Position numbers and translations under genes: made by a program. DNA of 45,108 nt from Spirochaetales bacterium Spiro_02 (lineage in GTDB: Bacteria; Spirochaetota; Spirochaetia; Sphaerochaetales; Sphaerochaetaceae). The notes under the pieces are model-generated. The model was not told the origin of the DNA, made no database searches, and saw nothing but the letters and a program-made list of their open reading frames with translations. Numbering within the stretch: the first letter of the stretch is position 1; every line of letters begins with the position of its first letter. Shown here in pieces: positions 12,543-15,860 of this stretch. The stretch is taken from assembly GCA_001604275.1 (NCBI GenBank), contig LVBD01000005.1, forward strand, positions 1-45,108, given 5' to 3'.

Positions 12543-12625
12543 GGGTCATTGCAGGATAATGGTCGCACTCCCTGCAATGACCCTTACCTACAATCCCCCC
12601 CCCTACAATAACCCTACCATGACCC
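12543..12625. repeat. Palindromic and tandem repeat region, 11-bp unit (copy 1)
   Basis: GGGTCATTGCAGG (12543-12555) and its exact complement CCTGCAATGACCC (12571-12583) form a 13-bp stem with a 15-base loop. Degenerate copies of the right arm follow: CCTACAATCCCCC (12587-12599), CCTACAATAACCC (12602-12614) and CCTACCATGACCC (12613-12625), the last two at an 11-base period. The last copies run into the 3' end of nrdG. The same unit occurs in three exact tandem copies at 39098-39130. Both places are junctions of convergent genes. There is no T-run, so it is not a standard intrinsic terminator. Confidence 0.75.
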
Positions 12626-13306
12626 TATCACGTGCGGTTGTTTTTCTCGCAAGCGTGGAAGCCATGACTTGATATCCTGTTCCGACGGAGCATAGGCATG
12701 GACACGCACCTCATCTTCGGGAAGATAGACTTCCGGGATCCGGTACACGTTCAACCTCCATGCGGGAACGGTAGGCATCTGCATGGCGATCTCCAGCATA
12801 TCGATCGCACCCAGAGTCGGGGCGACCGTCGTGCGGCACTCCCAACCGATTTCTGATGCAACGAGGATATCGAGCGTCGCCTGGACGGCATCCGCATCGG
12901 CGTTCGGGCCACAGATTTCCCGGTACCGACGCCAGGGAGCCTTGACATCCAAGGCGAGATAATCCACCAATCGCAGATCCAGCAGTTCCATCACCTTTTG
13001 CGGGCGACACCCGCAGGTATCGAGCTTCACAGCATAGCCGAAAGCCTTGATCCGCTTGAGAAACGGAACCAAGTCGGACTGGATCGTCGGCTCACCGCCG
13101 CTGACGACAACCCCCTCGAGCAACCCTACCCGCTTGGAAATGAAGTCCAGCACCCGCGCCTCATTCGGTCCGACCGCATCTCCGTTGAGGGCGATACGGT
13201 TGTGGCAGTAGAAACAGTTGAACGGACACCCTGCGGTAAATACAACGCAGGCGAGCTTTCCGGGAAAATCGAGCAACGTCGTCCTGACAAGACCAGCCAG
13301 CTTCAC
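12614..13306 (-). CDS. nrdG: Anaerobic ribonucleoside-triphosphate reductase activating protein
   Basis: Radical S-adenosylmethionine enzyme that installs the glycyl radical on NrdD; 230 residues. The [4Fe-4S] motif C-P-F-N-C-F-Y-C (CxxxCxxC) lies at about residues 27-34, followed by the G-G-E-P-T SAM-binding motif near 69-73. It starts with GTG at 13306, which overlaps the nrdD stop (GTGA), with GAGG upstream, so translation is coupled to nrdD. The subtype (N-terminal M-K-L-A-G-L-V-R-T-T-L-L-D-F-P-G-K) is the one found in many anaerobes and differs from short E. coli NrdG. Its last codons (I-G-S-W) lie within the repeat region at 12543-12625. Confidence 0.92.
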   Translation of the reverse strand: MKLAGLVRTTLLDFPGKLACVVFTAGCPFNCFYCHNRIALNGDAVGPNEARVLDFISKRVGLLEGVVVSGGEPTIQSDLVPFLKRIKAFGYAVKLDTCGCRPQKVMELLDLRLVDYLALDVKAPWRRYREICGPNADADAVQATLDILVASEIGWECRTTVAPTLGAIDMLEIAMQMPTVPAWRLNVYRIPEVYLPEDEVRVHAYAPSEQDIKSWLPRLREKQPHVIGSW

Positions 13307-15393
13307 AGAACTGCCTCGTTGACCACATAGACTTTGCGCTGACGATACTCTTCCTTCTTTCCTACATGGAAATCACGCACAGGGCGCAGATAGCCGACCA
13401 CTCGAGTCCAGACTTCCGTCTCCTTGCCGCAATGGGGACAGACCTTCTGCTCCCCCACCAGATATCCATGATCCTCGCATGTGGAGAACGTGGGAGTCAG
13501 CGACAGATACGGCAGCTTGTACCGGGAGAACGCGGTCCTGAGCAGCTTCTTGGCGACTTCGATATCGGAAATGCGTTCGCCGAGATACAGATGAAGGACC
13601 GTCCCGCCTGTATACTGACACTGCAGCTCATCCTGCAAGTCCAGCGTCTCGAAAATATCGTCTGTGAAGTTCACCGGCAGCTGGGACGAATTGGTGTAGT
13701 ACGGCACGTTCTCACCGGCGGTGCGGATATCCGGGTACAACTCCTTGTCCAGCCTCGCAAGACGATAGCTCGTCCCTTCGGCAGGAGTAGCCTCGAGATT
13801 GTAGAAATGCCCGGTCTCCTCCTGATACGAAGTAATCAGATCCCGAAGGTATCCGAGGGTACGCAACGCGAAGGCCTGCCCCTCTTCGGTCGTCAAGTCA
13901 TGATCCGGCCCCAGCAGATTCAGACAGGCTTCCTGCATCCCGACGATCCCGATCGTACTGAAGTGGTTCGCCCACCACTGCCCCTCCTTGTTCTTGATCG
14001 ACTGCAACCAACGGGCAGAGAACGGATACATGCCTCGATCCGTCTCCTGTTCGACCACCTTTCGCTTCAACTCCAGACTCTCCTTGGCAAGAGCCGACAA
14101 CGCAGCGAGGCGATTACGGAAATCTTCCTCATCGGCCGCCTCATACGCAAGTCTCGGCAGATTGAGCGTCACCACTCCCACAGAGCCGGTCAAAGGATTC
14201 GAACCGAACAGGCCGCCGCCTCGCTTGCGCAACTGGGATGTATCGAGCCGTAGGCGACAACACATCGACAAAGCGTCCTGAGGCGACAAGTCGCTGTTTA
14301 CATAGTTGGAGAAATACGGAATGCCATATTTACACGTCATTTCCATGATCGCATCGACAACCGGCCCTTCCCAGACAAAATCTTTGGTGACATTGATCGT
14401 CGGAATCGGGAACGTGAAGACCCTGCCGCTGGCGTCGCCTTCCATCATTACTGCGCAGAAGGCGAGATTGAACATGTCCATCTCCTCTTGGAAATCGCCA
14501 TACGTCTCGTCCTTGAACTCCCCGCCGACGATGACGCTCTGATCCTTGAGCGTACTAGGAACCCGGAGATCGAACGTCAGGTTGGAGAACGGACACTGGA
14601 AGCCGACGCGAGTGGGGACGTTGAGGTTGAAGATGAATTCCTGCAGAGCCTGCTTCACGGCAGCGAAATCAAGATGATCGTACCGGATGAACGGGGCGCA
14701 GTACGTATCGATCGATGACCAGGCCTGTGCGCCGGCGGCCTCCCCCTGTGTCGAGAACGTGGCGTTGACGATCTGGCCGAGGAACGCCCGCAGATGCTTG
14801 GCCGGCTTCGACGACACCTTGCCGGGAACCCCTCCGAACCCCATAGTCAGCAACTGCTGCAGATCCCAGCCGCAGCAATACGGCCCGAAGAACCCCAGAT
14901 CATGGAGATGCATCGCCCCGCTGGTGTGCGCCTCGCGGATTTCCTGAGGATAGACCTCATGGAGCCAATACTGCTTGGTGAACGACTCGCGGATATAGTT
15001 ATTCATTCCGTTGACCGACTTGCGAGTATTGGCGTTCTCCTGGATCTGCCAGTCCTTGTCGTCGAGATAGTCCTTGAACATCCGAGTGGTGGCATCGATC
15101 AGAACATGTCCGTCCCGGGCCTTGCGACGCTGTTCCCGGTACAGGATGTACGCCTTGGCCGTCGCGGCGGCGCCCGAAGCGATCAACTGTTTTTCGACCA
15201 GATCCTGGATCGTCTCGACATCGGCGGTGTCCTTGCCGCCTTCGGAGGCAAGCATGAGAACTTGTTCTGCAAGCTTGTCGGCATCGACATCGTATTCACC
15301 CGCAGCCTTGGCGGCTTTTGCGATCGCCAGGGAGATCTTCTGTCCATCGCAGAAGACCACCTGCCCGTCACGTTTGATGATATGGGTCAGCAT
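13303..15393 (-). CDS. nrdD: Anaerobic (class III) ribonucleoside-triphosphate reductase
   Basis: Oxygen-sensitive, B12-independent enzyme that makes deoxyribonucleotides, 696 residues. The N-terminal ~90 residues are an ATP-cone allosteric domain (I-I-K-R-D-G-Q-V-V-F-C-D). The catalytic barrel includes Y-C-C-G-W-D-L-Q-Q-L-L-T-M-G-F. At the C-terminus a metal-site pattern C-E-D-H-G ... C-P-H-C-G (about 639-656) is followed by the glycyl-radical loop R-V-V-G-Y-L-R-P (Gly near 667). ATG 15393 is preceded by GGAGGG; the frame is open to 15453 but that part forms the riboswitch leader. It is transcribed with nrdG. The leader carries a cobalamin riboswitch and the promoter region NrdR boxes, both annotated separately. 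Confidence 0.94.
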   Translation of the reverse strand: MLTHIIKRDGQVVFCDGQKISLAIAKAAKAAGEYDVDADKLAEQVLMLASEGGKDTADVETIQDLVEKQLIASGAAATAKAYILYREQRRKARDGHVLIDATTRMFKDYLDDKDWQIQENANTRKSVNGMNNYIRESFTKQYWLHEVYPQEIREAHTSGAMHLHDLGFFGPYCCGWDLQQLLTMGFGGVPGKVSSKPAKHLRAFLGQIVNATFSTQGEAAGAQAWSSIDTYCAPFIRYDHLDFAAVKQALQEFIFNLNVPTRVGFQCPFSNLTFDLRVPSTLKDQSVIVGGEFKDETYGDFQEEMDMFNLAFCAVMMEGDASGRVFTFPIPTINVTKDFVWEGPVVDAIMEMTCKYGIPYFSNYVNSDLSPQDALSMCCRLRLDTSQLRKRGGGLFGSNPLTGSVGVVTLNLPRLAYEAADEEDFRNRLAALSALAKESLELKRKVVEQETDRGMYPFSARWLQSIKNKEGQWWANHFSTIGIVGMQEACLNLLGPDHDLTTEEGQAFALRTLGYLRDLITSYQEETGHFYNLEATPAEGTSYRLARLDKELYPDIRTAGENVPYYTNSSQLPVNFTDDIFETLDLQDELQCQYTGGTVLHLYLGERISDIEVAKKLLRTAFSRYKLPYLSLTPTFSTCEDHGYLVGEQKVCPHCGKETEVWTRVVGYLRPVRDFHVGKKEEYRQRKVYVVNEAVL

Positions 15394-15404
15394 ATTCCCT
15401 CCTG

Positions 15405-15472
15405 CACGGAGCGATGCATCGGCCGGGCCCGCTTCATGAATGCCGGCACCCACGCCTATGCCATGCTCCGTG
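15405..15472 (-). promoter_or_regulatory. Expression platform of the cobalamin riboswitch (Shine-Dalgarno-proximal hairpin)
   Basis: On the minus strand, CACGGAGC (15472-15465) can pair exactly with GCTCCGTG (15412-15405), which is immediately followed by the nrdD Shine-Dalgarno GCAGGAGGG. Pairing would place the ribosome site at the foot of a hairpin. No T-run is present, which favours control of translation start over termination. The link to ligand binding is inferred from position. Confidence 0.55.
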
Positions 15473-15482
15473 GCGGCGTGAT

Positions 15483-15633
15483 CGTACGGGCAGGTCTTCT
15501 GGCTCGGGCGTCAACGACGTTCGGCGCCTTCCCGAAGACCACGGTCTTCAGTGGCAGATTGCCTTCGTCTCTTCCCTCACAGCGGCGGGACCGCAGGGGA
15601 TTCACACCCCTTTCCCTATTGAACTGCAGTACG
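15483..15633 (-). promoter_or_regulatory. Cobalamin riboswitch upstream of nrdDG
   Basis: Read on the minus strand the region matches the adenosylcobalamin riboswitch core in order: outer stem CGTAC (15633-15629), CAATAGGGAA, GGTGTGAATCC, GGTCCCGCCGCTGT, the nearly invariant GCCACTG box, a GGGAAGGCGCC segment, then CCGAGCCAGAAGACCTGCC and the closing stem arm GTACG (15487-15483). It ends about 90 bases before the nrdD start. Known riboswitches of this class repress their genes when B12 is plentiful. Placed before a B12-independent reductase, this suggests nrdDG is turned off when a B12-dependent (class II) reductase can work. That second enzyme is not in the window. Confidence 0.92.
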
Positions 15634-15647
15634 CAGTACCCATACTT

Positions 15648-15695
15648 ACACAAGATATAGTGTCATTGTACCGAACGGTACGCTATCAACGGTAT
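15648..15695 (-). promoter_or_regulatory. Tandem NrdR boxes in the nrdDG promoter region
   Basis: ACACAAGATATAGTGT (15648-15663) matches the NrdR box pattern ACAC-W-A-T-A-T-A-T-W-GTGT almost fully. A weaker second box, ACGCTATCAACGGTAT (15680-15695), matches about 10 of 16 positions. Their starts are 32 bases apart, three helical turns, the usual spacing of paired NrdR boxes. A perfect palindrome GTACCG-AA-CGGTAC sits between them (15668-15681). NrdR is the ATP/dATP-sensing repressor of ribonucleotide reductase genes. The boxes lie just upstream of the riboswitch, where the promoter must be. Confidence 0.75.
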
Positions 15696-15860
15696 GGCAA
15701 TGGTCGTCAATTGTCAATAGGATTTTTCAGACTTCCTGTAGTTTTCGGCTCATCTGCGGAAGCACGATCCTGGCAGGCACCCCACAGAAAGCACTTCCAC
15801 AACAACACGAATGGCGATATGCTAGACATGCATCGAATATCATATCGGGAGTCATGTCCA

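Follow-up and report, generated by a model that had tools for sequence, protein, structure and literature searches.

What decides when the class III ribonucleotide reductase operon nrdDG of this spirochaete is expressed, and how would the cobalamin riboswitch and the NrdR boxes sharing its leader divide the work? In Streptomyces, a class I reductase is repressed by a B12 riboswitch where a class II enzyme exists, whereas the switch addressed here precedes a class III enzyme. We analyzed this leader in the 45,108-nt stretch of DNA that contains it (hereafter, the window), in its source genome (2.6 Mb, 74 contigs) and among relatives in the Sphaerochaetaceae. The reading that we favor, with a probability of roughly 0.8, places nrdDG under two serial negative controls, with NrdR blocking transcription and B12 blocking translation.

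A study of 2004 described B12 elements on nrdDG of Desulfovibrio vulgaris and Desulfuromonas, where, as here, a class III operon stands behind the element in genomes with nrdJ and the same logic was proposed; these bacteria belong to another phylum, and the report makes no mention of NrdR (PMC545781). In Propionibacterium (Cutibacterium) acnes, published in 2013, nrdDG likewise carries both a cobalamin riboswitch and an NrdR box pair, nrdAB is also preceded by a riboswitch, and nrdJ lacks one (PMC3848588). Both the B12 element logic on nrdDG and the combination of riboswitch and NrdR boxes are thus already known, and the preliminary description of this DNA erred in calling it unusual for a class III gene to be controlled in both ways, since besides these precedents such control is the norm in family members that have nrdJ. 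What sets the present case apart is the order of the controls, the family-wide conservation, a 5' hairpin and the replacement of the aptamer by an AdoCbl-II switch in one genus. In the literature collection searched, no paper named Sphaerochaeta together with ribonucleotide reductase.

Aptamer, predicted promoter and putative operator of the nrdDG leader

Scanning with cmscan identified the RF00174 aptamer at 15658-15472 (-) as the sole Rfam match across the 45 kb window, covering model positions 1-189 of 189 (Table 1). The riboswitch core described earlier at 15483-15633 corresponds to the inner part of this match, and its minus-strand score of 124.9 bits lies far over the gathering cut-off of 31.5 bits. 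Downstream of the aptamer, after P1, a P13 hairpin presents a loop (L13) that reads CGGAGYA across related leaders; in the window leader its CGG is complementary to the CCG of L5, which points to an L5-L13 kissing loop as judged from complementarity alone. A kissing loop of just this composition, CCG in L5 and CGG in L13, was tested in the metE switch of Priestia megaterium, for which UCCCG is quoted as the L5 consensus (PMC10653944). Behind the switch, NrdD and NrdG both exceed the cut-offs of their curated models, as befits a class III ribonucleotide reductase operon. NrdD has an ATP-cone and, close to its C terminus, the glycyl-radical-type motif RVVGYLRP, and the nrdG start overlaps the nrdD stop by 4 bases.

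Table 1. Features of the nrdDG leader and operon, in window coordinates
Feature	Position	Strand	Basis
-35 element TTGACA	15712..15717	-	Conserved 17 bp ahead of TACYRT in almost every aligned related leader
Weak upstream NrdR box ATACCGTTGATAGCGT	15680..15695	-	10/16; overlaps the -10; equivalent position in related leaders
-10 element TACCGT (family consensus TACYRT)	15689..15694	-	Spacing and hexamer conserved in aligned leaders
5'-terminal hairpin of the predicted transcript, GTACCGTTCGGTAC	15668..15681	-	Inverted repeat of 14 nt, in the inter-box spacer
Strong NrdR box ACACTATATCTTGTGT	15648..15663	-	15/16 against ACACWATATATWGTGT; predicted to be transcribed
Cobalamin riboswitch aptamer RF00174, full length	15472..15658	-	cmscan 124.9 bits, E 4.3e-31
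L5 UCCCG, predicted kissing-loop partner of L13	15586..15590	-	Invariant across aligned leaders; matches the consensus in PMC10653944
P13 hairpin (CACGCC...GGCGTG)	15451..15480	-	Conserved in aligned leaders; loop L13 CGGAGCA at 15470-15464
Pre-Shine-Dalgarno segment GCTCCGTG	15405..15412	-	ON: pairs with CACGGAGC of P13/L13; OFF: CUCC pairs with GGAG (both predicted)
Shine-Dalgarno GGAGG	15398..15402	-	Sequence; 4 bases before ATG 15393-15391
nrdD, class III ribonucleotide reductase, 696 aa	13303..15393	-	TIGR02487 533 bits (cut-off 326); PRK08270 1009 bits
nrdG, radical-SAM activase	12614..13306	-	TIGR02495 NrdG2 181.7 bits (cut-off 131)

A generic sigma-70 scan left the window nrdD promoter unreported because TACCGT is a weak -10; it was found instead by alignment of related leaders. 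Aligned from TTGACA, these form a nearly gapless block that runs through 17 bp, TACYRT, a 14-nt inverted repeat and the strong NrdR box into the aptamer, which would place the transcription start near 15682, immediately ahead of the inverted repeat.

The strong NrdR box (15663-15648) overlaps the 5' end of the aptamer, over riboswitch model positions 1-11. All remaining 16-mers of the 45 kb window score at most 11 against the NrdR consensus ACACWATATATWGTGT. Across the 2.6 Mb genome, a search for ACACWATATATTGTGT that tolerates up to two mismatches yields just three places, each upstream of a reductase gene, namely the window nrdD, the second nrdD and nrdJ; the near-perfect box noticed at 15648-15663, with its 15/16, is one of these. 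The weaker partner proposed 32 bases away is likewise there at 15695-15680, exactly 32 bp upstream of the strong box (start to start), which leaves a 16-bp spacer. At a score of at least 10/16, reached by 0.15% of positions, ATACCGTTGATAGCGT would be unconvincing alone; it gains credibility because its position is kept in ~20 related leaders and the spacer is of the usual length. Spacers between NrdR boxes usually measure 15-16 bp, and repression depends on helix phase (PMC12051234). The leader thus shows the two boxes, the spacing and the reductase promoter of an NrdR-regulated gene, with a second box that is weak by itself, and the pair is presumably occupied by NrdR.

Because the boxes flank the predicted promoter, ahead of the aptamer, both controls would act in series. 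This order differs from that of P. acnes, in which a long distance separates the active nrdDG promoter from the NrdR boxes downstream of it, and a promoter at that position, as the authors suggest, could bypass the riboswitch (PMC3848588); here, the aptamer is downstream of the box-flanked promoter. NrdR, a dATP/ATP sensor, would bind the box pair, which spans the -10 and the beginning of the transcribed sequence, and turn transcription off when deoxynucleotides suffice.

Each nrdDG transcript would then start with a short hairpin, followed by the cobalamin aptamer. The five-pair stem of this hairpin has 96.3% of cells paired across 16 leaders, with both-sided changes at three of the five pairs, two G-U cases and a covariation score above that of all 500 shuffles. 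The arms of the inverted repeat adjoin the weak NrdR box, which could speak for a role in DNA; judging from the aligned sequences, a covarying repeat of this kind fits an RNA hairpin better than a protein-bound DNA palindrome. Its role in the RNA is perhaps transcript stability.

Predicted switching at the Shine-Dalgarno

The layout common to ~20 related leaders comprises the promoter overlapped by the NrdR pair, the covarying 5' hairpin, the aptamer, the P13/L13 hairpin and a pre-Shine-Dalgarno segment with two alternative predicted partners, P13/L13 and the Shine-Dalgarno. For the window leader in its free state, the prediction pairs CACGGAGC of P13/L13 with GCUCCGUG just 5' of the Shine-Dalgarno, whose predicted openness falls from 0.27 to 0.00 once P13 is locked. 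The same manipulation lowered openness in 18 of the 22 leaders folded (mean 0.55 to 0.23). Among 15 representatives the mean drop was 0.26 versus 0.08 for shuffled tails (sd 0.04, maximum 0.16), and none of 40 shuffled-tail control sets reached 0.26. Four of the 22 leaders (own_D2, L144, L029 and L028) showed no openness change upon P13 locking, so that the P13-dependent switch is a family trend and not a property of every member. In the window leader, the P13-tail duplex by itself was no better than with shuffled tails (p 0.14), and the folding of the whole leader was not unusually good (z -1.3).

These predictions suggest a simple sequence of events. Without adenosylcobalamin, P13/L13 would pair with the pre-Shine-Dalgarno segment and make the ribosome site more accessible; in its presence, L5 and L13 would kiss, P13 would be locked, and the freed CUCC would fold onto GGAG to block translation. 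Both ligand binding and the direction of the response are what we infer from this architecture. The metE switch of P. megaterium resembles it in the pairing of L5 CCG with L13 CGG and in a P13 that competes with an alternative, output-setting pairing, but it controls a transcription terminator, whereas the competing pairing here involves the Shine-Dalgarno (PMC10653944).

Alternatively, the riboswitch could repress nrdDG by stopping transcription within the leader, in a Rho-dependent or intrinsic manner, as some cobalamin switches do and as seen in P. acnes, where nrdAB transcription largely stops in the leader (PMC3848588). We deem this unlikely, since no terminator-like site was found in 15300-15850, and the conserved CUCC/GGAG pairing together with the P13-dependent closure of the Shine-Dalgarno favors a block of translation. 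Repression by B12 is itself the expected sign only, because one activating corrinoid riboswitch has been described (PMC10653944). That B12 would activate nrdDG through this switch is nonetheless extremely improbable: the predicted P13-locked state closes the Shine-Dalgarno, the same aptamer family precedes B12 uptake genes in this genome, a normally repressed class, and it makes little sense for a B12-independent isozyme to require B12.

Reductase and B12 genes of the genome

The class II enzyme that the preliminary description had postulated is indeed encoded, on contig C64 (NrdJ, TIGR02504 574 bits), and so is NrdR itself (TIGR00244 173.6 bits; L024 6474-6977). Upstream of nrdJ, two NrdR boxes (15/16 and 11/16) stand 32 bp apart, and the genome-wide scan returned no RF00174 at this gene. 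The genome carries five RF00174 switches: those of the two nrdDG operons, that of nrdAB, and those of a btuFCD-like operon and of a gene resembling TonB-dependent B12 receptors. Every B12-independent reductase found (nrdDG-1, nrdDG-2 and the class I nrdAB) accordingly sits behind a B12 switch, next to a B12-dependent isozyme that has none. A B12-replete cell would then depend on NrdJ, whose gene has NrdR boxes but no riboswitch, and nrdDG would most likely be expressed only under B12 shortage.

The second nrdDG encodes an 803-aa NrdD behind a B12 riboswitch and an NrdR box; no convincing NrdR box was detected at nrdAB or upstream of nrdR (best 10/16). The presence of the same kind of switch on nrdAB and on the second nrdDG had been overlooked earlier. 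The two operons, nrdAB (riboswitch, no clear NrdR box) and the second nrdDG, are divergent within ~4 kb (L020; C72:8000-27999), and a tandem array of CACCCTACCAG-like repeats lies upstream of the nrdAB switch. The leaders of the two nrdD paralogues are 74% identical, versus 78-80% for the nrdD leaders of relatives with D1, and a recent copying of the leader between the paralogues was rejected on these grounds. All nrdD leaders are mutually closer than to most nrdAB and btu switches; plasmid copies of the nrdD leader gave no match.

B12 uptake, which the proposed logic demands, is represented by the riboswitch-linked BtuFCD-like and TonB-dependent B12-receptor-like genes; the best curated match of the latter is a vitamin B12 receptor model, below its cut-off. 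B12-binding domains are present, and CbiC is absent from the genome. De novo synthesis is therefore unlikely and the corrinoid probably imported, so the cell appears to import rather than make it. At L022 3850-5853, in a spirochaete, a TonB-dependent receptor lies behind a cobalamin riboswitch near ExbB/ExbD/TonB-like genes.

Riboswitch and nrdJ across the family

The survey took in 66 genomes of the family in which nrdD had a substantial match. In 18 of them RF00174 precedes nrdD, and 17 of the 18 encode nrdJ, as opposed to 3 of the 48 whose nrdD has no RF00174; this raw table (17:1 versus 3:45) yields a Fisher p of 8e-12, a value that overstates independence because the genomes are related. 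The three nrdJ-positive exceptions all resolved to a riboswitch on nrdD, and riboswitch-free exceptions to the nrdJ rule were discarded, being accounted for by a scaffold gap and AdoCbl-II switches. In one (G001/L027), a run of N crosses the aptamer and leaves its 3' end and P13. In the other two (G004 and G023), the switch is of the AdoCbl-II class (RF01689; 35.3 and 37.0 bits, cut-off 36.5) and adjoins NrdR boxes of 16/16 and 15/16. A further genome, G037, has a sub-threshold RF01689 match (28.9 bits) upstream of nrdD and was moved, with less certainty, to the class with both switch and nrdJ; its NrdJ is split over two reading frames (C2:14917-16579), by either an assembly frameshift or a broken gene. 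With the exceptions checked and G037 moved, nrdJ presence to absence becomes 21:1 with a switch and 0:44 without. The one residual exception, G074 (82% complete), has the nrdD riboswitch and shows no nrdJ.

AdoCbl-II replaces RF00174 on nrdD in one genus (L162 527-601 (-), L165 ~1500, L167 ~1500), with one of the three RF01689 matches above the gathering score and two below; near-perfect NrdR boxes occur in two of the three genomes. Riboswitch and nrdJ also co-vary within two genera (g8 and g10). These within-genus changes and the use of a second aptamer class argue that the association is functional. A further alternative is that the switch is a relic, or mainly answers another corrinoid, with NrdR alone controlling nrdDG in practice. 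Corrinoid switches do respond to several corrinoids (PMC9600662), yet an intact core and L5, a conserved P13/L13 and a near one-to-one correspondence with nrdJ, which holds even where another aptamer class has taken over, make this very unlikely.

Serial control by NrdR and B12 would offer a family-wide, testable case of reductase choice, set by deoxynucleotide state at the promoter and by cofactor supply on the mRNA, and the tracking of nrdJ together with the second aptamer class provides good comparative support for selection acting on the isozyme switching proposed in 2004. A broader proposal, tentative and to our mind somewhat more doubtful than probable, is that the Sphaerochaetaceae nrdD leader forms one compact gate. 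In it, the NrdR operator would be transcribed, its spacer being the conserved 5' RNA hairpin and its strong box running into the aptamer base, so that one stretch would act as operator, mRNA stem-loop and riboswitch flank; the class III genes of the family would, moreover, have independently acquired RF00174 and AdoCbl-II behind NrdR boxes.

The window nrdD has Sphaerochaeta and other spirochaete genomes among its closest named relatives, 14 of these loci having a riboswitch just upstream, as do three nrdD loci of Desulfobacterota/Clostridia. Beyond spirochaetes, the dual arrangement itself is seen in the nrdD leaders of a Desulfogranum (L054) and a Desulfobulbaceae (L064) locus, both from Desulfobacterota, which combine RF00174 with 14/16 NrdR boxes.
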